From: Odontocerum albicorne
Taxonomy: Eukaryota; Arthropoda; Insecta; Trichoptera; Odontoceridae
NCBI GenBank assembly: GCA_949825065.1
Contig: OX463859.1
Coordinates: 6,610,217-6,674,216 of the forward strand
Length of the DNA stretch: 64,000 nucleotides
Reading direction: 5' to 3'
Position 1 is the stretch's first letter. Every line of letters begins with the position of its first letter. The notes under the pieces were generated by a model. That model made no database searches. It was not told the origin of the DNA and was given only the letters and a program-made list of their open reading frames with translations. Positions 3,811-63,945 of this stretch are shown one piece after another. The position numbers and the translations under genes were made by a program.

Positions 3811-4101
3811 AACGTCTATTAATATACACATATTTATATACTCGTAGATCCAAAGAAATGTAATATTTTTGCATATGTTATTTAAGCATAAAACTCCTCA
3901 TCAGGTTACGTTTACGTTTGATTTAAGTAGACAATCAAAGCATTATGCTCTTTGTTAACTCTGAGTTTGCAGAAATGTTGCACAATGAATTGATACAACG
4001 TAGCAGGTTATTTCCAGGAAACAATGTCAATAAAGTAATAAAATACCTTTCTTCGAAGCGTGCCATTTCAATATCTGCTTACGTGATGATTCATAACAGC
4101 A

Positions 4102-4399: not shown

Positions 4400-4640
4400 T
4401 TTAGTGAGTCGTTGCACACCAGCAAACTCACCGGCCATACCACTGTACTTAATCCGATGGTACACCGAAGTGAGACGATCGGAGCAAACTGGACTGTTGT
4501 CTATGTTTTTTCCCTCTTTTTTGAAAGAATAGATATGACCAAAGGCATACATAGATATCCTTATATCCTCAAAGATTAGGTGGAAACAATGCCTTTTGCA
4601 TTCGACGGGACTAGGAAAGTGCGTGGAAATGCACATCTAC
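4400..4640 (-). repeat. SINE-B copy, 5'-truncated
   Basis: In minus orientation: body ATATGGATACC-like block, GGTCATATCTATTCTTTCAAA (near 4510-4540 inverted), then the terminal block CTTCGGTGTACCATCGGAT ... GTTTGCTGGTGTGCAACG (4415-4475 inverted). The order matches the fuller copies at 26300-26580 and 44872-45125. The tRNA-like head is lost. Confidence 0.6.
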
Positions 4641-4679
4641 GAGTAAGATGAGTATAAAAAAAGGCATAATACAAAGTGG

Positions 4680-5690: not shown

Positions 5691-6044
5691 GTAAATAGAG
5701 AAAATAGTCCAAATTTTGAGAAAACAAATTAGAAGACAATTTCTTCTTTAGGTGAACGTATTTTTTTTCCTTAAATTAGTTCTGTGGTCTGTAATCAGAA
5801 CTGCCTCTCTTCAGATGGGGTTCTCAGCTATGCTTTTATATTTTTGGAGGTCTTCATGGAGGTCGATTTCTATGGTATATTTCATCCATTGCCACGTAGG
5901 GAGTTTTTTTTAACTATGCATCCTGTCTGCATGATCTCGTATGTATCTTTAGCGATTTTACATTCTCTCATCTTCTGGTTAACATATTTTTACGAGTAGA
6001 ATACGAGTTTTTTTTTCACATTCTATCTCCAAGTGTTTTGTCTG

Positions 6045-6178: not shown

Positions 6179-6288
6179 GTTTTCGTCATTCCAGACCACA
6201 TTTTTTAATTATCCGAAGACAGTAGTGACTTGAATCACTTGGTTTCTTATTATGTATGAGGATCATTATAATGTCTTATTGTGTCATA

Positions 6289-6645
6289 CTTTTGGTGTGC
6301 ATAGTACAACCTGGAGGAATAATAACCAAGAGTCAATATCTTTTGGTGTGCATAGTACAACCTGGAGGGATAATAACCAAGTATCAATATCTTTTGGTGT
6401 GCATATTACAACCTGGAGGGATAATAACCAAGTATCAATATCTTTTGGTGTGCATAATACAACCTGGAGGGATAATAACCAAGTATCAATATCTTTTGGT
6501 GTGCATAGTACAATCTGGAGGAATAATAGCCAAGTGTCAATATCTTTTGGTGTGCATAGTACAACCTGGAGGGATAATAACCAAGTATCAATATCTTTTG
6601 GTGTGCATAGTACAACCTGGAGGAATAATAACCAATTATCAATAT
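6289..6645. repeat. 51-bp minisatellite, seven copies
   Basis: Unit begins CTTTTGGTGTGCATAGTACA and has period 51. Copies differ by a few substitutions. Since 51 is divisible by 3 and the unit lacks stops in three frames, it creates long repetitive ORFs on both strands (6252-6668, 6256-6693, 6406-6642). These are by-products, not genes. Confidence 0.95.
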
Positions 6646-6647
6646 AT

Positions 6648-6775
6648 TTTAACCAACCAGAAAGTTAAATTCAGACTTGAACTTTTTTTTTAATAATCTA
6701 GGCTCCAACTGGAATCTAACTCGCTACCCTGAGATCGGATGACACGTGTCTTTCTTACTAGGCCACGGAGGTTGA
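6648..6775 (-). repeat. SINE-A copy
   Basis: Read on the minus strand: CAACCTCCGTGGCCTAGTAA (A box), a degraded B box, GTTGGAGCCTAGATTATT, the A run and the start of the body. It ends at CTTTCTGGTTGGTT and abuts the 51-bp array. The distal tail is missing. Confidence 0.7.
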
Positions 6776-7054: not shown

Positions 7055-7270
7055 CGATTAGCGAAAGAGAAGTAGGAAAAGCTTAAATAGAGGAATTTAT
7101 TTTATTCCTATAAATTATTGCTAAAATCGACAATACATATAATAGAATACTTTTTCAAGCTATTCAAGAAATGTTTAGAAATCCTTTCTTTGAAAATATT
7201 ACGTAAACGTTAATAATTCTTTTGGGTATTTTCTCTCGAACATTCCGTAAAAATACTCGTACATTATTAT

Positions 7271-8699: not shown

Positions 8700-8960
8700 C
8701 ATCTGAGAGTTTCGGATGCGATTCTCGATTGAACCTAAAATTTACTATAAAAGGATCTTAGTCTGGTAAAAGACTTCGTCGCGTAACAATACTCGTACAC
8801 GCCAGACGTATGTAAGTGTTGTTGTCACTTCACGTGCGGGGTAGTATTGCTAACAGGTGCGACGAACTGTGCGTTTCATGTCTACTTTAGAGGTTCTAAA
8901 CTGTAACGCTTTATTAATGGGGCCGAAAATTATGTTTTTTCCCTGCCACGATATTCAATA
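8700..8960 (+). repeat. Dispersed repeat F, copy 1
   Basis: Shares the block around TCACTTCACGTGCG ... CGAACTGTG ... ATTCAATATGCCCGA with 36700-37150 (where a SINE-A splits it) and with 58385-58490 (inverted). No coding potential. The CACGTG in the core is conserved in all three copies. Confidence 0.6.
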
Positions 8961-13059: not shown

Positions 13060-13440
13060 ATATCTTGTATCTTGGTGCCAACTTTGTTGTATGGAAGTGA
13101 AACGTCTGGAAAAATACTGAAAGGAGTTTCATAAATGCTGTAGAAATACGTATTTTGAGACGAATACATGAAATTACAATATACTCGTATGACAGAATAC
13201 GGAATAAAGTGATTGGGGATGAATGTGAACTTAAAGCTGATGTGTTGAGTAAGGTGGAGAAGGACACTGTGAGATAGTTGAGGTATGTGAAACAAATGAA
13301 TAAGGAAAGGTTCGCAAAACGTGAGAGGAAGACCAAAAAAAAGTATGGTTGGGTCAAGTGAATGATATTTTTAAAGGATGAAACGTAGAAGGTCAGATAA
13401 ATCGTAGAAGAGACGAAGGAAGGTCCTGGCGCTCTGTCCT
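13060..13440 (+). mobile_element. LINE-e C-terminal fragment 2
   Basis: Reads VLRRIHEITIY, DRIRNKVIGDECELKADVLS, KVEKDTVR, MNKERFAKRERKTKKKVWLG, QVNDIFKG and EGQINRRR across a few frameshifts. This is the RT-distal module of an RTE-like LINE. An extra Ser-Tyr from a 6-bp insertion splits TIY and DRIRN at 13194-13199. The 270-codon minus ORF covering 12632-13444 is the shadow of this copy. Confidence 0.75.
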
Positions 13441-20034: not shown

Positions 20035-20225
20035 CCAACTTTAATTTATGGAAGTAAAACGTGGACGTTAATAGGAGCCGAATAAATGTTGTAGAAATGC
20101 GTGCACTTAAAATAATACAAAGGGTGACAATTTATATCAGAATATGGCAAGAAGGGATTAGAAATTAATGTGAACTTAAAGAGAATAAGATGAAGAGAAT
20201 AGAATAGAACAGCACATTGAAAAAG
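20035..20225 (+). mobile_element. LINE-e fragment
   Basis: Encodes YGSKTWTLIGAE, VEMRALKIIQRVTIYIRIW, GIRN and CELKENKMKRIE with shifts. It corresponds to 13085-13260 of the longer LINE-e copy. Confidence 0.6.
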
Positions 20226-20585: not shown

Positions 20586-21863
20586 AAGATTCCTAAATTA
20601 TTCGAGAGTCTTATCCTAGACAAAATTGTTGATTCGATTCGCAATATTATTATCACTCAACAGCATGGATTTATTTCAGGTAGATCCACACTGACTAATC
20701 TACTCGAATATGAAAACTATATTTTCAATTCGTTCTCAAATGGAAAACAAGTGGACTCAATTTACACAGATTTCAGTAAAGCATTTGACAAAGTATCACA
20801 TAATATACTATTAAGTAAACTAAAAGCTTTAGGAATAGTTAGCCCGCTCTTAGACTGGATCGAAAGCTACATTAAAAACCGAATACTTACTGTCAAAATC
20901 GATAGTTGTCTTTCATATCCATTCACAGCTACAAGCGGTGTACCCCAAGGATCGCATCTAGGACCAATATTATTTCTCCTATTCGTTAATGATATAGTTG
21001 ACACACTTAGTGACGTAGAAATTTTACTTTTTGCTGATGATTTAAAAATGTTCAAAGTCATAAATAATACTGCTGATTGCCTTAAATTACAAGAAAACTT
21101 AAATAAATTACAACAATGGTGTACCACAAATAAACTGCACTTAAACCTGAGTAAATGTGAGTCCATTAGTTTTTATAGAAATAAAAATCCAATTAATCAC
21201 GAGTATTCGCTAAATCAATATATATTAAAACGTGTATCTTCTATAAGGGACTTAGGAATTATATTTGATGAAAAACTCTCATTTATAGAACATGTGAACA
21301 AAATCACTCGGGAGAGTTAAAAAATCTTGGGATTTGTACTAAGAACTGCCCAACATTTCTCGGATTTACGAACATTAAAACTGCTGTACTGCTCTTTAGT
21401 ACGTAGTCGCCTTGACTACAACTCACCAATATGGTCTCCTCATTACGCCGCCCATGCACTAACTTTAGAACGTGTGCAAAACAAATTTCTAAGATTCATA
21501 AACTTTAAACTTGGAATACCGCATGAAGAAAGAAATTATCCCAACTTATTAAATGCAGTGAAACTCTTGAAGCTGTGTGACAGAAGAAAAACAGCCGATA
21601 TAGTACTGCTATACAAAATCATTCACTCAGTGATTGATGCACCTCACTTACTCGCGAGCATTTCATTTCGTATTCCCACTAGATCCACAAGACAGCTCAA
21701 TCCCTTTTATACCGAAAATTGTTATACTAACTATAAAATCAACTCCTCTATAATTCGTATGCAAAGACTTGGAAACGAGTTTTGCAACAATTTAGATATC
21801 TTTAATATAAGTATATATAGTATTCGCCAGAATATTACAACAATATTTAGAAATAGCTACTAA
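20586..21863 (+). pseudogene. LINE reverse transcriptase, one in-frame stop
   Basis: About 425 codons in one frame. In order: IPKLFESLILDKIV (20586 on), QQHGFISGRSTLTNLLEY (RT finger), YTDFSKAFDKVSHN (first catalytic Asp), ATSGVPQGSHLGPILFLLFV, LLFADDLKMF (FADD catalytic pair, about 21028), LNKLQQWCTTNKLHLN, DLGIIFDEKLSF, then RTLKLLYCSLVRSRLDYNSP and IWSP. The only break is a TAA at 21318-21320; the frame is the same on both sides, so this is a nonsense mutation. The 5' part (endonuclease) is absent. The frame continues upstream of the GTG at 20751, which is not a true start. QHGF with FADD suggests the CR1/jockey group. Confidence 0.9.
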
Positions 21864-23085: not shown

Positions 23086-23285
23086 CTACCCTTCTACTCG
23101 TATATGTTGCAGTCGTTTCAGAAAATTCGTTGAGATGTGTGCACGACCCAGTCCATTCAATAAATTACTAAATGCGAAAACTAGCTCTTCCCACATAGAA
23201 ATAACAGAAACTATAGATACAATCATTATCACTTCTACTATCCCATGCCCTATTGGGACAGACAGAGAGAACATATCTTCACTTC
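23086..23285 (-). repeat. Dispersed repeat K, copy 2 (inverted)
   Basis: Inverted copy of 18930-19125, with a 6-bp CGAGTA insertion relative to it (TACTCGTA at 23095-23102). Confidence 0.75.
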
Positions 23286-24830: not shown

Positions 24831-25330
24831 AAAAATGGGTAATCTAGATGACCGCAAGTATAATAGGGTGAAGGAACAATATTGAAGCTAAAGAATTTAC
24901 CGTAAAAGCTTCCATGCCATTTAAGCGCACATAAGGTCCATTGTCTTTTTATCACCAAAGTCACTGCACTGGGATACTAGTCACTGGTAACTGAAGTTAT
25001 GATGGAAGGTCAAGACGAGGTCACGCTCACGTGAGGTGATTCAGTAGGCTGGTGGCGATTTAGGCAGGTCAGCCGCGGTAGACAGTGTAGGGCGCTAGGG
25101 TGGCTAGGGTGGCCCACGCAGGAGGCCAGGGCGGCAAGACCACAGCAAAGTCAATAAAGCTATTTTAAGATTCAATTTAATAAGTTAAATTTAAAAAAAA
25201 AACAATCATTATTATTATTATAATTTCCTAGATCTATCCGAAACGCTCTGAAGTTCGTCTAAAGTGAAAAAAATATATAAAATAGAAAAACCGATGTACT
25301 CGTAGTTCAGACGACACATTGTATTGTATT

Positions 25331-25574: not shown

Positions 25575-26144
25575 GTGCCATTCATGCCATTGTCGTGCAG
25601 CAGGCAGACTCCCTTTGTCAGCATGCCTCTCCTCTTGTTCTGAATTGCCCTCCGCAATTTTTTTAGGGTCTCACAGTATCTTGCAGAGTTGATGGTCTCC
25701 CATTGAGGCATATATTCAATCAAAATTATGCCTTGACAGTCCCAAAATAATTTCGTCAGTCACAATTGAAGGTCTTCCGCTCCTCTGATCATCATGCACA
25801 GACGTACGACCGTTTTTAAACTCGTGACACCATTTGTACACACTCGTACGATTCATAGCTTTATCACCATATGCAGTTTTCACCTCATTATAAACCTCAA
25901 CCGGAGGTTTTCCCTTCCGAACGAGATAACGGATGACGCCGCGTATTTCGCACTTGGCAGGAGATTGGATTTACATTTTTCACAAAACGTGTTGTCGCGT
26001 CGACAATTCTCAACGTACTGACCTCGAACCGGTCTCGTTGCGGAGGGGAAGGGTCAGGCTACGCGGAAGTGTAGCCAACATGTCGAAAATTAAATCCATC
26101 CGGTCGTGAGAGCCTCAGTACACTTACTTTCTGGATACGCCACG
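25575..26144 (-). mobile_element. mariner element 2, 5' half with internal deletion
   Basis: The 5' terminus is visible at 26144 (CGTGGCGTATCCAGAAAG after TA at 26145-26146). Downstream on the minus strand, a frame encodes the HTH region (SPAKCEIRGVIRYLVRKGKP, PVEVYNEVKTAYGDKAMNRT, SVYKWCHEFKNGRTSVHDDQ, RSGRPSIVTDEII). It then jumps by deletion and shift to GIILIEYMPQWETINSARYC and LLHDN, the end of the second catalytic motif. The stretch between (including the first Asp) and the C-terminus are missing, and no 3' terminus is seen. Confidence 0.85.
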
Positions 26145-26299
26145 TATATAATTAGTGAGTGTTTCATTCATTACAAAAGATAACGACCTCCGTAACATAG
26201 TGGTAACATTCTTGACTTCAACCCAGTAGATGGTACCCAAAAAGGAAAAGAATGAATAGATATGAACAAAGTCAAACATGTTTCTTTCTTCCTTTCTCC

Positions 26300-30243: not shown

Positions 30244-30606
30244 CAGTGGCGGCCGGTCCCAAGGTGCGCTGGCGCGCCGAACCGTAGAAACAATTCGCAA
30301 TATAGAGAAATAGTCTCACGGTTTACTGTACTCGTATGTCTCTGTCTGCCCTACATGAATCTGCGTTTCCGTCCGGTGCATATTCGAAATCGCTCCGCTA
30401 TGAATTGGCAAACTTGGCCGGTCAATTTGAAAGGATTTTTTTTTAAATGTTACTTAAATATTCACTTAAATAAATATACTTGTATTATTTGTCAGTATTC
30501 TTGCACATATTTAATCTATACAAATATTCAAATTTTTTGGAAGTCATGTTTGCGAATTATTTCTCCAGCTCAGCGCACCAACGCACCCAGAGACCAGCCG
30601 CCGCTG
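30244..30606. mobile_element. hAT-type MITE with 8-bp target duplication
   Basis: Long imperfect inverted ends: left CAGTGGCGGCCGGTCCCAAG, right (inverted) CAGCGGCGGCTGGTCTCTGG, with similarity extending about 55 bp inward (GTGCGCTGGCGCGC against GTGCGTTGGTGCGC). Flanked by ATATTGAA (30236-30243) and ATATTGAG (30607-30614), 7 of 8 matching. CAG-type ends with an 8-bp duplication define hAT. No transposase inside. Confidence 0.85.
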
Positions 30607-36470: not shown

Positions 36471-36695
36471 AGACCTCTGTGGAATAGTTGGTAGGACGCA
36501 TATTTTCCAACGCCCCCTGCGATGGAAAACAGGCGGGCTTGATTCCCGTTGGAACCCAATTTATTTTTAAAAGGGTTCAAGTGTGGTTTCCATTTAAGGC
36601 ATCTTTGATATTTTCGTGGTTGGTTGGAATAGATTGTCATGTGGCCATAAACCCAAACGATTATATTGTATAAAAACGAAAGTATATTTAAAAAA
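36471..36695 (+). repeat. SINE-A copy, degraded head
   Basis: AGACCTCTGTGGAATAGTTGG, B-box relic GGCTTGATTCCCGTTGG, AACCCAATTTATTTTTAAAAGG, then GTTGGTTGGAATAGATTGTC and an A-rich end. Confidence 0.75.
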
Positions 36696-38224: not shown

Positions 38225-38780
38225 TATTGCATCGTTTAGAGCTGTGGTCTCCAAAGTGGGGTATGCCAACTGACAGAAATAAACATATTAAAGATGAACA
38301 AATGATAAACATCAAATAGACGAGGAATTGACAGTGGCAACGCTATCTGGTGCTCGTAGAAGAGGCAGACTGGAAATCTTTGTATTTAAAACTGCCAATC
38401 CATGACATTTTTACGTATGTATATCATATACATCAACATTTATAGTGCGAACCCCTATATACTCGTATATATTCAGAGGTTCGCATTATAAATTTCTTCC
38501 ATCTTAAGGGTACGCGATCAAAAAAGTTTGGAGACCACTAGTTTAGAGAGCAGACTCTCTTCAAGGGCGCTCCTACTCGGGACTCTAGCCCACTAATATT
38601 TGCAGATTAAAAATGTATATGCGAGTAAGTAGAGTGTACGGATAGGAAGGCAGCGATTGCAGCCATTAGATTAGGGACTGCCTCGCATTTACATATTATC
38701 AGAAAAACATATTTGGTAAGAAAACTGCAGAAACCTTGCCAATGGATAGTGACAATATAAAAAAAGTTTTATCCACGGTT
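38225..38780 (+). repeat. Dispersed repeat H, copy 3, split by a MITE
   Basis: The start (CGTTTAGAG) is interrupted at 38242-38540 by a hAT MITE and continues at 38549 with AGCAGACTCTCTTCAAGG, GCGCTCCTACTCGGG, GGAAGGCAGCGATTGCAGCC and GGTAAGAAAACTGCAG. Confidence 0.6.
38242..38540. mobile_element. hAT-type MITE with perfect 8-bp duplication
   Basis: Flanked by GTTTAGAG at 38234-38241 and 38541-38548. Ends: left CTGTGGTCTCCAAAGTGGGG, right (inverted) TAGTGGTCTCCAAACTTTTT. The short TGGTCTCCAAA terminus and 8-bp duplication fit hAT. An internal hairpin (38439-38493) carries TACTCGTA at its apex. No coding. Confidence 0.85.
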
Positions 38781-40429: not shown

Positions 40430-42283
40430 TTAATGAGATCCTTGTGCTTGTTTCGAAGAACAAGATGTGAGATATACCCTTCAAGCCACCCTCCCCCTCC
40501 ACCTGCGGCCTATTTGGGAAGATACTTATTTCTCTTTCTACTAATTCCGTACTAGTGAACGGTAATAACTATTTGAGAGCTTTTTCAGAAAGTTCTTCAT
40601 ATTCTTTATCGATGTTTAACCAACAATTAATTAGATTGTTTCGTTCGAATTTGACTTGTAAAGTTTTGTCACTTGATAAGCCTATTAAACTTTCTTTATC
40701 TTTTATTGATAACGATGAAGCTTTTTCCAAATTTTCTGCATAGAAGGGGTTTGTTTTCGGGTTTTGGAAAATACTCCATGAAAGACGATTTTATGTTCTC
40801 GTAAATCTTGAGACAAGCTAACCTTATTTTCAACCAAAAAAGTATGTAGAGTTTCGAATACTTCCGGTTGATTGTTTTCGATACACTGTTTCCAAAAATC
40901 TAATTTCTTAATCATACTTTCAATTTTATCATTAACATTAAAGATCGTCATCGAGCTTTTCTGAAGTGTCAAATTTAAGTCATTTATTTTAAAAAAAATA
41001 TCAGATAAATATGCGAGTGCCTGAATAAAATACAAATTATATAATTTTGAAGAAAGATCAAAATGATTATCTTGAAAAAAAATCAGCGCTTCTTGCCTTA
41101 GTTCAAATAAGCGGGTTAGCACCTTTCCGCGAGATAGCCATCGCCATCGCCATCGCCATCTCACTTCTGGATGAAAAAGTAGAGAAGTGTGAATACTCAT
41201 CATATCTTCGCACATAACTTTAAAAATTCTCGAGTTGGTGGAGCTTTTCTTTATAAAATTAACAATCTTCACCGCGTCGTTGAGAACGAGATTCAATTCT
41301 TCAGGAAGGCGCTTTGTTACTAGATTTTGCCTATGGATACAGCAGTGGCTCCAAATTACATTAGGAGCTACATTTAAGACGCGGCCGCGAAGACCAATAT
41401 ATAAACCTGACATTGACCTGGCACCATCAGTACACAATCCACAACAGTTTGACCAATTAAAACCTTTCAATGTGAAATAATTGTCAATGGCTTTAAAAAT
41501 GTCTTCACCAGTTGTACGTGTGGAGAGAAAATGACAAAGTAAAAGGTTCTCTTCAAATTCATTGTCTTTCACGTACCTAGCAATAACAAGCAATACAGCA
41601 TTGTTTACCAAGTCTGTGCTCTCATCTACTTGAATTGAGAAAAATTTACTTTTTTTTATTCTCTCTACCACTGTTTCCTCGATATCCTCGGACATATCAT
41701 GAATTCTTCTCAATACCGTATTGTTTGAAAGAGGAATACGATTTATTTTTGGGATATATTTTTGATCAATCATAAATTCAACGGCATCCTTTATACTGGG
41801 TAAAATTATTTTTTCGCCAATTTGATGGTTATAGCCACATTTGGCGATTCGATAGCTAATACGATAACTCACGTCTACCGCACGTTCGTTATCGTTATTA
41901 GCATTTGAAACGTAACTTGATATCACTTTAGTATTTTCTTTCATACGTTTAAAAAAATTGAAATCTTTGTTTCGGTAATCCGAATGTTTCGTGTGCAGAT
42001 GTCGCGAAAGAAATGAAGGTTTCATGCATCCATTGGAAAGCACTACCCCACACACTACACACTCGGGCTTAGGGCAGTCTTCGTCTCCAGTATACGAAAA
42101 TCCATATTTTATATATTCATCGCAGTATTTTCTCTTAACGCCTTTTTGTATAACTGAAGACTGCAAAATTTCAACGTTTTGCACCGAATTTTCAGAACTG
42201 CCATTTGTAGAACTTGGCAATACATCACTGTCCGTGTATTGCTTGATATTTTGGCACATACCGGTTTTTAACCACTGATCCAT
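40430..42283 (-). pseudogene. hAT transposase, BED finger type, frameshifted near C-terminus
   Basis: 526 codons open from ATG 42283. Residues ~57-115: BED-type finger (CVVCGV ... HLHTKH). ~210-225: FFSIQVDESTD (catalytic Asp region). ~280-300: GLCTDGARSMSG. ~315: WSHCCIHRQNL. ~378-395: EVRW..WLSRGKVLTRLFELR. A frameshift near 40735 moves the rest to another frame, which reads DKESLIGLSSDKTLQVKFER, NCWLNIDKEYEELSEKALK, a TAG stop, then LLPFTSTELVE, the hAT C-terminal dimerisation region. The resemblance is to the ZBED5/FAM200-like hAT group. A short repeat expands RW within the VRWLSRG motif. Likely recently active, now inactive. Confidence 0.9.
41137..41161 (-). repeat. In-frame hexanucleotide expansion in hAT transposase
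   Basis: Four CCATCG/TGGCGA-type units encode RWRWRWRW where related proteins have a single VRWLSRG. Three extra Arg-Trp pairs lie in a conserved motif. Confidence 0.85.
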
Positions 42284-42721
42284 GTCTTATTAAAAAAGAA
42301 AAAAGTTAATTAACACACGGGATCAATGAAGTTTAATAAACAAATATGATACAATCACAAACAATAACGCACCTGTCACTTGTAAGCCGCGCACTCAAGT
42401 GAATGGAGTACAGCGCCATCATAACAGTGACGGCGACATCTTAAGTTACTGATAGCTACCGCGCTAAATTTAAAAGTGCACTCCAAAAATACGATATTGA
42501 TTGTTGGATTTTCGATCATCGACTGTACATATTAACAACTGTACTGTATATTATTAATTAAAATTATGAATTATAGGAAAAATATAGTAGTTTAAATGAT
42601 ATTTTTATGACAGTTTTTTTTTTACTTTTTATGTCCGCCATTACTGATTATTTTTCGCGTACCACCAACTATCCACTCGCGTACCACCGGTGGTACGCGT
42701 ACCACAGGTTGGGAACCGCTG

Positions 42722-43382: not shown

Positions 43383-44005
43383 CATATTTCGCATTCATCT
43401 GTTAGTACTGGTAAAATGCATTGATTAAATACCTTCCGTTTGAGACAGGTTGGGATATTGCCCTTGAAAATGTATATCAGTCGTCCAAAGCAGTGCTCCG
43501 CAACCGGTGTGCCGTGGCACACTGGTGTGCCGTGAGCCGGATACAGGTGTGCCGCGGTCAAATTCAATGTACGAGTATTTGACATTTTACAATTTTTCAT
43601 TATGTATTTAATACACAATAACTGGTGCCAACTGTTGAAAACTGCGTAGTGTGCTTTGTACACACCATGGCCGCACCAAATTAGTCATAGACAAAGAAAA
43701 ATGACCCTTATGCGCGTCGCTGAAGACTCATGCCTAATTTAATACCTATATATTTTAGCTTTTGGTGTGCCGCGGAATTCTAGGAAGAATTTTGGTGTGT
43801 CGTAGGTGAGAAAAGGTTGCAGAGCACTGGTCCAAAGGAACTCCAAGCAAATTTTCCTTTTCTATTTATTTCATTTAGAGTGCAATCCTCAAATTAAATA
43901 CTTTGTCCTAGGTAGATATATTGTTGGACTTGTCCTAGCTGTTCCATCCACCTGGATTGATGGGACATTAGCAAAGCGGTTCGAGTATATTATATACGCT
44001 GTTCA
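43383..44005 (-). mobile_element. LINE-a fragment split by a hAT MITE
   Basis: Reverse complement encodes ADVMSNRSRWMEQLGQVQQY-like, KLAWSSFGRL, NLPTCLKRKVFNQCILPVLT and DECEI pieces. The MITE at 43491-43829 interrupts CTCCAAAGGAACTCC. Outside it, the order matches 18260-18540 inverted. Confidence 0.8.
43491..43829. mobile_element. hAT-type MITE with perfect 8-bp duplication
   Basis: GTCCAAAG at 43483-43490 and 43830-43837. Ends CAGTGCTCCGCAACC and (inverted) CAGTGCTCTGCAACC. Multiple GTGTGCCG/GTGTGCCGTG subterminal motifs. Removing it restores LINE-a. Confidence 0.9.
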
Positions 44006-44009
44006 TATA

Positions 44010-44785
44010 TAGTTTATCTTCCTTGTCTCTTTGGCGTTAAAAATTTTTATACCTGAAGACGGTAAGAAAGAAAAATTAGTTGAGGCGCGTTTTGTCAGTT
44101 CTTTCCATATTGTCATCAGAACGTCATTATACTCGTAAAATTGTATATTAAAGTTATTATTATTAAAATATAATTCACTTATACACACATAAAACATATT
44201 TTATTTGATAAAATATAGGAATCATGAACAAAGATATAAATTAAATTTAAAAAATGTCATTTTCTCCTCCAATACTTCCCTGACAATTGCCTCAAGGGTG
44301 CAATGGTGTGTCATCGCAAACAAAAGGCTTTGAAGAAGTAACACTCAACGCATTTGCTATACCATAAATAATACCCATATTACCGTGTGCCCTATTGTAC
44401 CCCCGTCTCCCCCCGTAACTTAATACAATATCAAATATAATAAATCGTATCGCACTCAAAGCCGCAGAACACAATCATTAAATATAGTAAAATATATACT
44501 TTTTGATAGAAAGGGAGGGACAGTTGGGGTAAAAGTAAGTACGAAAAAGTAAGCAGGATAATTTTGTGAGTTGGGGGAATTGGAGTCAATTGCTTCGATT
44601 TGTGAGGGTTATTTAAGATGTGGTTGAATTGATCAAGCAGTGATATTCATGGACAAATCTTTATCAAGGAAAAAGTCTTAATGTTGTCGTCATGTGCAAC
44701 GTTCCCTGTAGATTTCACTAGTTAGGTGGAATGAAATATATCTACATAAATACATAATATCGCACCATTTCCTGCTGGGGTAGGC
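44010..44785. other. No recognised feature
   Basis: AT-rich with a purine-rich patch at 44500-44570. No family match seen. Confidence 0.4.
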
Positions 44786-46580: not shown

Positions 46581-46864
46581 CGCTTGTCAGTCTATCATAA
46601 TTAATTTGTTCTACGAGTATATATCTAAACCATCTCAGATTTATCTTTTCATCTTATTTAACTCTTTAGTCTTAAGTTTTATTTTAATTTTAAGCGGTAT
46701 GATGTTTTATCAATTATCTCAAAACAGGTAAAACATGAGCTAGGCTCGTCTTGTATACTCATGGTCATATAACGTTGAAATCTTTTTCATTTAATTAATT
46801 ATATATTTTCTATCCTATAAACATACCTTCGATTCCAGTTAGCCCAACAACTAAATATTCTCAA

Positions 46865-48200: not shown

Positions 48201-48955
48201 TAAAACTATTTTAAACAATGGGTTATTGGAAACTGTTTTCTCTCTGAAGTATGCTATCTACTCGTAATTTAAACAAAGTGCTTTTGGAGAGCGTTTCCTC
48301 TCTAAAATATGCTATCTATTGTATTTTAAACAAAGCGCTTTTGGAGAGCTTCTCTAAAAGATGCAATATAAATTGCACTTTTTATATTTATTATTAATTA
48401 AAAAATTTAAACATCACATTTTTATTTGTAGTGTTTCAAAAAGTATTTATTATAAGAGCCGATTGAAATATCATCCTTAACAGTGTGAACAAGGTTATTT
48501 AGTTCCAGAAAATAATGTAAAATGGCATCCTGGTGACATGTCGCAGTTATAACCCTTCTCCCGTGACGTGGGTGTGACGTCCATGTGCCGTTCATTGTAT
48601 ATTATTGTATTGTTGTAGCAAACACAATTTTTACACCTCTCCATACAATATAAAAACTGTCAAGTTCTGTTGAGTGTCTGGTACAAGTATATGGAACATT
48701 GTACTAATCGGCTTTTGTACAAGGTGTCGGTTTTATGTTTTCAACAAACAGTAAGGGAGTACTTCTCAATAATGTATTTTATTTTCTAAAAACGTTTTTT
48801 TTGTTGTTGATTCGATGGTGTCTTCCATGGACCAATAGGCAAGTCACATCTTCGGGAATACGGGCTTAATTTCAGTTTAAATTAAATCAAAGAAAAGGGG
48901 CTTTGGTATGAGTTTTATAATACTTCAGCCTTCATATATGTTGGTTGGTCAGAAG
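48201..48955. other. Unassigned, with a local duplication
   Basis: 48235-48280 and 48285-48350 are related halves (TGCTATCTA ... AAACAAAG.GCTTTTGGAGAGC). Otherwise no recognised feature. Confidence 0.45.
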
Positions 48956-56030: not shown

Positions 56031-56219
56031 CCAACGCTTAAGAAGTATATCCAAACAGACCCATTAGAATAAATTTGGAATAGAGCCATGGATAAAATCC
56101 ATACTGTGTGTAATAAACCTGTCGCCGAAATCTCTTTTGGACTCGCTCAGTAGCTACAGAAGACCGAAAAATTATAATTTATTGTCTTTATTCGAAACAT
56201 TGTATTTGGTTTCTGTACT

Positions 56220-56850
56220 CGTATTTCGAGCAAGCGAGAGGCGTAGAATAGATGCGTTTGAAATGTGGTGCTGGAGCAGGATGTTACAAATTCCATGGAC
56301 AACAAGGCGAAATAACGCCTCCATTCTCGATGAACTGACAATTATTTACAATATGCATTCGACGAGTCCTCCGATTCTTCGTCCGAAGTCTTTCGTTTTT
56401 GCAATATTCATGTATGGCGAGGATACTTGAATTCTGCAGCGAGAGACGTAAAAAAGATGCATTTGAAACGTTCTGCAGGAGAATAATATTACAAATTCCA
56501 CGGACAGCAAGGCGAATTTCTCCATCTTCTAATAATTAAGAAACACCGATTAATTGTCGACAATATGATTTCGACGACTCCTTCGATTCTTTGGGCACAT
56601 TGCTCGTGGCCAAGGAGACAGTTTGGAGAGGTTTGTAGTTAATGCAGCCACGGAAGGATGACGCACAAGAGAAAAAATCCCAATGCGTTGGACTGACCAA
56701 TTGAGAGACGCAACTGGATTACTCTTGACAACTGCCTTTCGAGCCGCGGAGTGTAAGAATGGATGGTGAGCTTCAGAGGCTATCATGAGAGTCACGATGC
56801 TCAGTTATGAGCCACACGACAGGATTGCTTTTCTCTTTGGTTATTATGTT
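56220..56850 (+). mobile_element. LINE-f, two adjacent fragments
   Basis: First: SERRRIDAFEMWCWSRMLQI, PWTTRRNNASILDEL (56240-56340). Second from 56435: ILQRETxKRCI-like, FCRRIILQIPRTARRI and RLFGHIARGQGDSLERFVVN, DDAQEKKSQCVGLTN, ATGLLLTTAFRAAECKNGW, RGYHESHDAQL. Both are parts of the same C-terminal module, so this is a local duplication or two insertions. All frames broken. Confidence 0.7.
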
Positions 56851-59374: not shown

Positions 59375-59600
59375 ATCGATATCAGAAAATTCATTCAATA
59401 AGATCATTCCGTGTGCGAGTGATGATGCTCTTAACAGCTCAGTTCGTGAACACGACACCGAAAACAATCTTCATTCACGATAGCGTAAATAGTTGTCCGG
59501 CGTATTAAAAAGAAGTTGGTGAATCAACAAAGGGTTTGTTATTCTTCCTGTTACAATAACAATTTGTATACGAGTATGTTTGAATATCATAGGTGCGTAG
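59375..59600 (+). repeat. Dispersed repeat I, copy 2
   Basis: Matches 55815-56030. It carries a CGAGTA insertion at 59571-59576 relative to copy 1. Confidence 0.65.
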
Positions 59601-60085
59601 ATCATTTGAAGACTAAGAATTGTAATAAATTCTTCGTGAAGGTCGTCAAGCGTCACACGGCGGTCATTTCGCACTTGTTCAATTTTTTTGCACAATTTCG
59701 TCAGAAATCACTGCCTTGCCTCGTCGTGAGTATCAGTATGGCCTTCTCTGAACAACTTAACCCAATTCGTGACATGTTGTCGACTCATCACATCACTACC
59801 ATAAACTTCCACGAGCTTCCAATGGATATTCGAGGCGGTATTGTTCTACAAAGTCAAAAAACGGATGATCGCGCGGGTCTCGCACGGACGAGAGGTGGCG
59901 GGAGCCCGCGACGACCTCTCCATCGGAAGAATTTACTGTGACTGAACAAAATGGCCGACAAACACGCGGGACCAAACAAACTGACCGTTAGGATCCTCCC
60001 TACACGCCAGGTGCGCCAACTTTGAAACAAAAAATTCCCCCGGCCTCAGGAGCCCTTGTAACCTTAGTTTCTGGATGACCCTCGT
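59601..60085 (-). mobile_element. mariner element 3 (CGAG terminus), 5' part
   Basis: The 5' end is at 60084, minus strand: TA then CGAGGGTCATCCAGAAAC, TAAGGTTACAAGGGCTCC. Downstream a degraded frame reads MERSSRAPATSRPCETRAII, RFLTL, NNTASNIHWKLVEVYGSDVM, SRQHVTNWVKLFREGHTDTH, DEARQ, KKIEQVRNDRRVTLDDLHEE. This is the HTH domain of a mariner-like transposase, with a few stops. Catalytic domain and 3' end are missing. The terminal CGAG is exactly the core of the TACGAGTA/TACTCGTA octamers seen across the window. Confidence 0.85.
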
Positions 60086-60089
60086 ACAA

Positions 60090-63524: not shown

Positions 63525-63945
63525 GTATCACAGTTATTTAAGTTTAAAGTATATTGATATCTTTTAATGATTGGCATATCACAGTTATTTAATTTTTAAG
63601 TTTAAAAAATATTGATATCTTTTAATGATTGGCATACACATATCACATTTTTTAAATTTTAAAATGTATTGATATCTTTTAATGATTGGCATATCACAGT
63701 TATTTAATTTTTAAGTTTAAAAGATATTGATATCTTTTGATGATTGGCATACACATATCACATTGTTTTAATTTTAAAATAAATTGATATCTTTTAATGA
63801 TTGGCATATCACAGTTATTTAATTTTTAAGTTTAAAAGATATTGATATACTCGTATTTTGATGATTGGCATACACATATCACATTATTTTAATTTTAAAA
63901 TATATTGATATCTTTTGATGATTGACATATCAGAGTATGTACCAA
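63525..63945. repeat. About 113-bp tandem repeat, about four copies
   Basis: Each unit has two related halves ending ATTGATATCTTTTAATGATT, GGCAT, alternating ATATCACAGTTATTTAAT and ACACATATCACATT. One unit has ACTCGTA inserted at 63848-63855. Confidence 0.9.

Follow-up and report, generated by a model that had tools for sequence, protein, structure and literature searches.

Probable excision footprints of mariner-type transposons with TA-CGAGG ends: the octamer TACGAGTA in the genome of Odontocerum albicorne

Introduction

Excision of a DNA transposon is usually invisible afterwards, and the locus described here raises the question of whether such departures can be read from short fixed words in a genome. 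The window, i.e. the whole stretch of 64,000 nucleotides that was analyzed (G000:C28:6610217-6674216 within a 1.287-Gb assembly), contains on its minus strand the remnant of a mariner element with a TA-CGAG terminus, and it contains 17 copies of the octamer TACGAGTA, whereas 100 shuffled versions contained 1.31 on average and never more than 6. A first-pass annotation had proposed that the octamers derive from this terminus, each consisting of four terminal bases enclosed by two copies of TA. From the sequence comparisons summarized below, we consider it highly probable that TACGAGTA/TACTCGTA represents the excision footprint of mariner-type transposons with TA-CGAGG ends. If the octamers are scars, a single genome counts transposon departures in fixed 6-bp words, and this count is independent of the number of surviving elements. 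Excision rate, repair fidelity, target choice, and site re-use would then be measurable in natural populations, and the genome would harbor a mariner lineage whose cuts are staggered by 4 bases, as well as one 6-bp insertion in roughly every 4 kb, indels that go unnoticed in annotation.

The mariner remnant and other elements of the window

On the minus strand, a TA at 60086-60085 is followed by CGAGGGTCATCCAGAAAC from 60084 downwards; the TA-CGAG terminus attributed to the element is thus confirmed, TA-CGAGGGTCATCCAGAAAC being read from 60086. The sequence CGAGGGTCATCC has one 0-mismatch occurrence in the whole window. The remnant (59627..60086, minus strand; CGAGGG from 60084 downwards) is the 5' half of an element of a family designated A, with 92-94% identity to the copies L006, L008, and L002 over the first approximately 460 bp, 90% to L001, and 85% to L003; the 3' half is absent. 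Because the match to the family copies covers these first 460 bp only, the window copy has one terminus. The alignment to L006 (94.2% identity) ends at window position 59627 and that to L003 at 59616, with a range of 59616-59632 over five copies, and the left border given earlier (59601) was 15-26 bases too far out. The terminal inverted repeat (TIR) of about 31 bp including TA (60056..60086, minus strand) matches the opposite end of L006 with 96.8% identity over 31 bp.

The family A comparison set (L001, L002, L003, L006, and L008), which was pulled out by the terminus, comprises copies of 893-930 bp with pairwise identities of 91.7-94.5%, and family A is an internally deleted family of about 929 bp. 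All five copies are broken: the helix-turn-helix (HTH) part is kept, the DETWV motif is found in most, and the catalytic middle is absent. The Pfam domain HTH_48 was detected with an E value of 3.3e-12 in a piece of the sister copy L002; a second piece of L002 has a sequence match to SETMAR and Mos1 chains and matches no Pfam family. Exact family A termini number 2,829 genome-wide (1,393 + 1,436).

Three further elements were seen in the window. At 20586-21863, a reverse transcriptase remnant consists of two open stretches in one frame, the first of which matches PF00078 proteins, and by eye it appears non-LTR-like. Among the 120 matches listed for it, the few eukaryotic ones that have a name are from insects and two carry bacterial labels, which points to no particular species. 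An open frame of 527 amino acids at 40703-42286 may belong to a hAT/ZBED-type transposase, which it resembles by eye. At 6229-6693, a unit of about 17 codons (LLVCIVQPGGIITKYQY) recurs in tandem in an open frame and has the appearance of a coding-like minisatellite.

Abundance of the octamer

Genome-wide, TACGAGTA occurs 381,502 times (190,753 + 190,749), compared with 30,151 sites (15,081 + 15,070) for the reversed control. Across about 160 kb, no other 8-mer is over-represented as strongly (106 versus 4.9). Among the words of the type TA-NNNN-TA, CGAG leads clearly, with milder excesses of TATATATA (236 versus 52.5), TAAGGATA (28 versus 8.0), and TAGCGCTA (8 versus 1.4), and among the 256 NNCGAGNN words the TA..TA context reaches 21.7-fold, followed by 6.8-fold for the next one.

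When terminal bases of the CGAGG end were placed in increasing number between two TAs, a 222-kb sample contained 436 words versus 423 for one base, 100 versus 94 for two, 25 versus 31.7 expected for three (TACGATA), 57 versus 5.6 expected for four, i.e. the octamer itself, 1 versus 1.05 for five, and 1 versus 0.15 and 0 versus 0.2 for six. The array-rich C1 segment and L039 do not enter into these figures, and about 18 kb of the 222-kb sample, as of the 259-kb sample used below, are six loci that were retrieved by means of the family A terminus. A 3-base scar as from a Mos1-like cut was rejected, its word being without enrichment. The 222 kb contain about 51 octamers more than expected, which scales to about 300,000 beyond background genome-wide; with about 10,000 copies that have the exact end, this would correspond, as an arithmetic estimate, to about 30 scars per detectable copy. 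The 24 one-mismatch neighbors of the octamer total 161 versus about 148 expected; since they are barely in excess, most scars seem to be little mutated and mostly young, the decay count being too noisy for finer dating. The segment C1:1-81328 (G000) contains 100 forward octamers, some 8-fold the average density of the genome; many of these octamers belong to arrays.

Octamers as insertions at TA

Paralog alignments reveal that repeat copies differ by an exact insertion converting TA into TACGAGTA. The best case of such an insertion is the putative scar at 63848..63855 (minus strand), which lies in one unit of a tandem array near 63.5-64.0 kb and is flanked by two neighboring units (89% and 92%) that lack exactly 6 bp at the TA. 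The octamer at 13182..13189 (minus strand) is absent from paralogs at 20082-20181, with the gap placed as 4+2, and in L041, with a single 6-bp gap; the one at 46612..46619 (plus strand) is absent from an L042 paralog (68% identity). These two are also regarded as putative scars. At 23095..23102 (minus strand), the octamer was returned as a candidate 6-bp insertion by an unbiased gap scan. The octamer at 59569..59576 (plus strand) adjoins the mariner remnant and lies in a repeat whose L050 copy has its own octamer at a different TA. The one at 8790..8797 (minus strand) is common to a partial paralog (L006:1150-1218), and the spanning paralogs at window position 36692 and in L046 have neither the octamer nor a clean 6-bp gap. 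The octamer at 48259..48266 (minus strand) lies in a tandem whose partner unit aligns with a 1-bp gap and therefore provides no clean empty site. For the octamers at 4638..4645, 5991..5998, and 43570..43577 on the plus strand and at 3839..3846, 7254..7261, 25297..25304, 30329..30336, 38460..38467, 44130..44137, and 56216..56223 on the minus strand, the sample contains no spanning paralog.

Further clean or near-clean empty sites were found for C1 24689, L043:2267, L043:3144, L049:491, and L039:3596, the last of which has a clean 6-bp gap relative to L052 and a 5-bp gap relative to L039:490 (C1 24689, 26337, 4264, 25696, and 22188 are stitched-segment coordinates throughout). Empty sites, which had been suggested as a check on the proposed origin, were thus found at TA with a difference of exactly 6 bp. 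C1 21029 was rejected as a scar on account of a 9-bp gap in the alignment. A word-blind gap scan of 259 kb returned 49 six-base gaps, 16 of which were of the TA-NNNN-TA type; CGAG accounted for 6 of these, and the runner-up was ATGA with 3, all within one C1 array.

In a strict test, paralogs were available for 47 of 131 octamers, of which 9 were empty-only, 1 was both, 30 were filled-only, and 7 were unclear, and for 1,102 of 2,442 control TA-NNNN-TA sites (54 empty-only, 168 both, 647 filled-only, and 233 unclear). Three tandem arrays, most units of which bear the octamer, contain 29 of the 47. Outside arrays, the raw score of the other 18 favors the empty state in 12 cases and the filled state in 4, with 2 mixed, and here the evidence is uneven on both sides. 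Three of the 12 empty-favoring comparisons are at 65-72% identity (C1 4264, C1 25696, and L039:1126), and C1 26337 is ambiguous on inspection. Among the 4 filled-favoring ones, L040:1965 and 59569 have partners, in L003 and L050, respectively, without an octamer at the same place, and the remaining two are the sites at 48259, with its 1-bp gap, and 8790, which shares its octamer with the partial L006 paralog. Several of the empty-site paralogs are old and diverged, which, like the 30 filled-only octamers, counts against the reading as scars.

The octamer is present in most units of the minisatellites C1:24114-24699, L039:6462-7289, and C1:71937-72787 (periods of 45, 64, and 50 bp, respectively). 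Minisatellites of this kind would be in line with a motif of functional or satellite nature that selection or tandem amplification has spread, but outside arrays, comparison with paralogs mostly shows the octamer as 6 bp inserted at TA, and its flanks have a symmetric, transposon-like bias (see below); such a motif is a highly improbable explanation. Of 133 octamer sites, 37 (5 clusters) are in tandem context; for the controls, the numbers are 122 of 700 sampled sites and, among 2,465 sites, 33 clusters. It may be that arrays are seeded by breaks upon excision, for which the evidence is weak.

Mariner families with CGAGG ends

At least three mariner families have the TA-CGAGG end in common. 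The pattern TACGAGGNNNNNCCRRWAASTA retrieved 18,657 exact ends genome-wide (9,283 + 9,374) and 0 in the control. The 100 TA-CGAGG ends listed, which come from the first 3.4 Mb of C1 only, are divided into 72 of family B, 12 of family A, 11 of family C, and 5 others. The end of family B reads CGAGGC[A/G]TATCC with close variants, and that of family C reads CGAGGG[C/T]GGTCCGATAAG with one variant. A family B remnant in two blocks with the end TACGTGGCGTATCCAGAAAGTAAGTGTACT is located at 25585..26150 (minus strand) of the window and has 95.1% identity to the B copy L040 over 205 and 163 bp. The family B copies L040 and L051 (about 937 bp) are 96.6% identical, and the sampled copies of families A and B, 0.89-0.94 kb in size as compared with about 1.3 kb for mariner elements, are deletion derivatives with TIRs of about 31 bp. 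All seven translated copies (five A and two B) are broken or internally deleted. With regard to the DD34D catalytic triad of mariners, the family B pieces contain TGDETWV and SPDLAPSDY, and HENAR in place of HDNA; we take these sequences, like the DETWV of family A, to be mariner motifs and HDNA to be the usual form.

A scan of 259 kb for TIR pairs with TACGAG ends gave 8 matches, i.e. 5 family A elements, whose loci had been fetched by their own terminus, 1 family B element, and 2 weak pairs (13/20 bases) of octamer against octamer in the C1 segment. TA was found at both ends in 35 of 35 full-length pairs (15 A, 17 B, and 3 C), nearly all of which had been chosen by TA-containing patterns. 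Of the two full B copies found in the sample, L051 is bounded by TA on either side, whereas one TA of L040 is mutated.

The flanks of 99 flank-unique octamers have a symmetric bias, with A-T-A before and T-A-T after the word, and differ from those of all TA sites with p values, computed from rounded frequencies, of 7e-11, 0.005, and 6e-9 at positions 1-3. The same bias is found in 36 resident elements (15 A, 18 B, and 3 C), in which position 1 is mostly a purine, position 2 a T, and position 3 A or T; with the exception of L051, these elements were selected on C1 according to their ends and are no random sample. The scar flanks are less clean, with C or G at position 3 in about 14% of the scars versus 0 of 72 element ends. 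The log-odds of the 99 scars and the 36 elements are correlated with r = 0.79 (0.65 for A alone and 0.85 for B alone); none of 2,000 random TA sets reaches this value, their maximum being 0.675.

The assumption that family A alone made the octamers can draw on the exact fit of its terminus, its 2,829 exact ends, and its similar flank profile. It is nevertheless very unlikely, because families B and C have the same TA-CGAGG end and B leads among the ends listed, the scar flanks correlate better with B than with A, and a comparison of one B pair suggests a younger age (96.6%) than that of the five A copies (91.7-94.5%). The view of the element at 60085 as the sole family behind the octamers is not supported, as other TA-CGAGG families are several times more numerous and a B remnant is present in the same window. 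What holds of the proposed derivation is that the octamers behave as scars of TA, four terminal bases, and TA, judged by the 6-bp gaps, the flanks, and the double sites described below; family A as "the" source does not. It is likelier that family A is one contributor and the commoner family B the main source, and since several families carry the TA-CGAGG end, with B ahead of A, the source is best named as the CGAGG-ended mariner group.

Alternatively, the scars could stem from an unseen CGAG-ended Tc1-like element, for example a Minos-like one, which is now rare or lost and with which the mariners merely share the terminus. A 6-bp footprint has been reported for Minos, and the published cleavage of mariners, in those parts of the reports that were available, lies 2-3 bases inside the end. 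However, the Minos terminus (14 bases with TA) has 0 exact matches genome-wide, on which ground Minos itself was rejected as the scar source; a diverged relative could escape an exact match. The convincing TACGAG-ended TIR pairs in 259 kb are mariners, and the scar flanks match those of resident mariners. A Tc1-like source is thus regarded as unlikely, and the CGAGG-ended mariner group is retained in the following.

Double sites and repair products

Double sites of the form TACKMGTACKMGTA number 1,944, versus 162 for the control. Of 50 listed, 24 are direct, 17 have CGAG beside CTCG, 9 involve CTAG, and 0 CGCG; three of the direct ones belong to one fourfold run and two to a run of three or more. 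The direct double sites and these runs are what local slippage or tandem duplication of CGAGTA would produce. As an origin of the words, this process is extremely improbable: the 17 sites of mixed orientation are impossible by slippage, which gives direct repeats only, whereas independent re-insertion into an old scar followed by a second excision would leave them, and 1,944 double sites are few beside 381,502 octamers. If about 350,000 scars are distributed over about 117 million TAs, chance re-use would be expected to yield about 1,000 double sites, compared with about 1,600 estimated from the 50 listed.

CTAG in 9 of the 50 double sites listed on C1 is above the background expectation, while CGCG is represented by 0. 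Counted on their own, the CTAG hybrid TACTAGTA occurs 17,979 times genome-wide versus 24,353 for the reversed control and 10 times in the sample versus 4.5-6.7, and the CGCG hybrid TACGCGTA occurs 2 times in the sample versus 2.8-3.5. By these counts, independent repair of two mismatches, which would give CTAG and CGCG, is at most weak.

The words TACGAGTTCTCGTA (C1 segment 22188) and TACGAGTCTCGTA (L039:5996) are possible scars with both ends filled in. Fill-in words with a spacer of up to 14 occur 4 times in the sample versus 0 in each of six control pairs, and the swapped CTCG/CGAG pair gives 3 words; these numbers are too small to use. A fully filled-in 8-base scar did not occur in the 222-kb sample.

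Proposed mechanism

The transposase would insert the element at sites favoring RTA/TAY, as shown by the flanks, with duplication of the TA. Upon excision, cleavage would occur at the 3' ends and, as we infer, four bases inside the 5' ends, which would leave CGAG 3' overhangs on both flanks. Direct joining of the flanks by the host would give TA-CGAG-TA, to be resolved to CGAG or CTCG; the element would move on and the 6-bp scar would stay. As all seven translated copies are broken or internally deleted, the CGAGG-ended mariners would have been mobilized in trans.

A tentative and rather doubtful extension of this scheme is that two CGAG 3' overhangs pair with each other and that the break is sealed without trimming, giving one uniform scar about 300,000 times. 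Such overhangs could pair by outer C:G pairs and a tandem G.A mismatch, which is a stable arrangement. Self-pairing would explain that scars of 3 or 5 bases are not in excess, that the 8-base scar is missing from the sample, and that CTAG and CGCG hybrids are few. If the end of the Tc1-like transposon Minos is likewise CGAG, the tetranucleotide would have been found twice.

The scars would have arisen in the germline and been inherited. Insofar as soma and germline are indistinguishable in a single assembly, it is conceivable that excision was programmed or occurred massively in the somatic tissue sequenced while the elements stayed in place in the germline, but many two-ended copies are still in place, and the copies and, less surely, the scars show some divergence; we regard this possibility as most improbable.

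Comparison with known systems

Among the matches listed from titles and abstracts of the open-licence literature, there was no description of a genome-wide excision octamer. Apparently, both the 4-base stagger for mariners and the scale of about 30 scars per detectable copy are new. In Macrosiphinimar, the irritans-type mariners of aphids (Apismar1.1, Mpmar1.1), the TIR CGAGGCGTGTCCAGAAAGTAAGTGTACT is nearly that of family B, and deleted copies (923-1165 bp) likewise occur; 1 to 6 complete copies are given per such lineage, and the available portion of this report contains neither a footprint nor a scar count (PMC5490172). The human mariner Hsmar2, with the 5' end TACGAGGGGTCTTC, likewise begins with CGAGGG, whereas the cuts of its reconstructed transposase are described, in the accessible part of the study, as non-canonical and variable, without a clean 4-base scar (PMC3770610).

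A four-base scar does not by itself set the family apart, as had been supposed, since Minos, which is Tc1-like and no mariner, is reported in the excerpts at hand to leave a characteristic six-bp footprint of four bases plus TA; its repair is non-uniform: three alleles had gained 4, 8, and 6 bp, one event was a precise reversion, and another was a deletion exceeding 500 bases (PMC3386967, PMC10992017, PMC6980720, PMC7466976). The footprints of Tc1 and Sleeping Beauty likewise consist of TA, terminal bases, and TA after end joining, with 2-3 bases versus 4 here, according to the available sections of these papers (PMC13148408, PMC3878927), and Tc1/mariner cleavage is published, in the portions available, as two to three bases inside the 5' ends. 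A survey of DNA-transposon excision in rice likewise read excision sites on a genome scale and, in the part of the article at hand, lists 94 putative excisions, 8 of which were perfect while the others had deletions or filler, whereas in the present genome a uniform scar would have been left about 300,000 times (PMC4423477).
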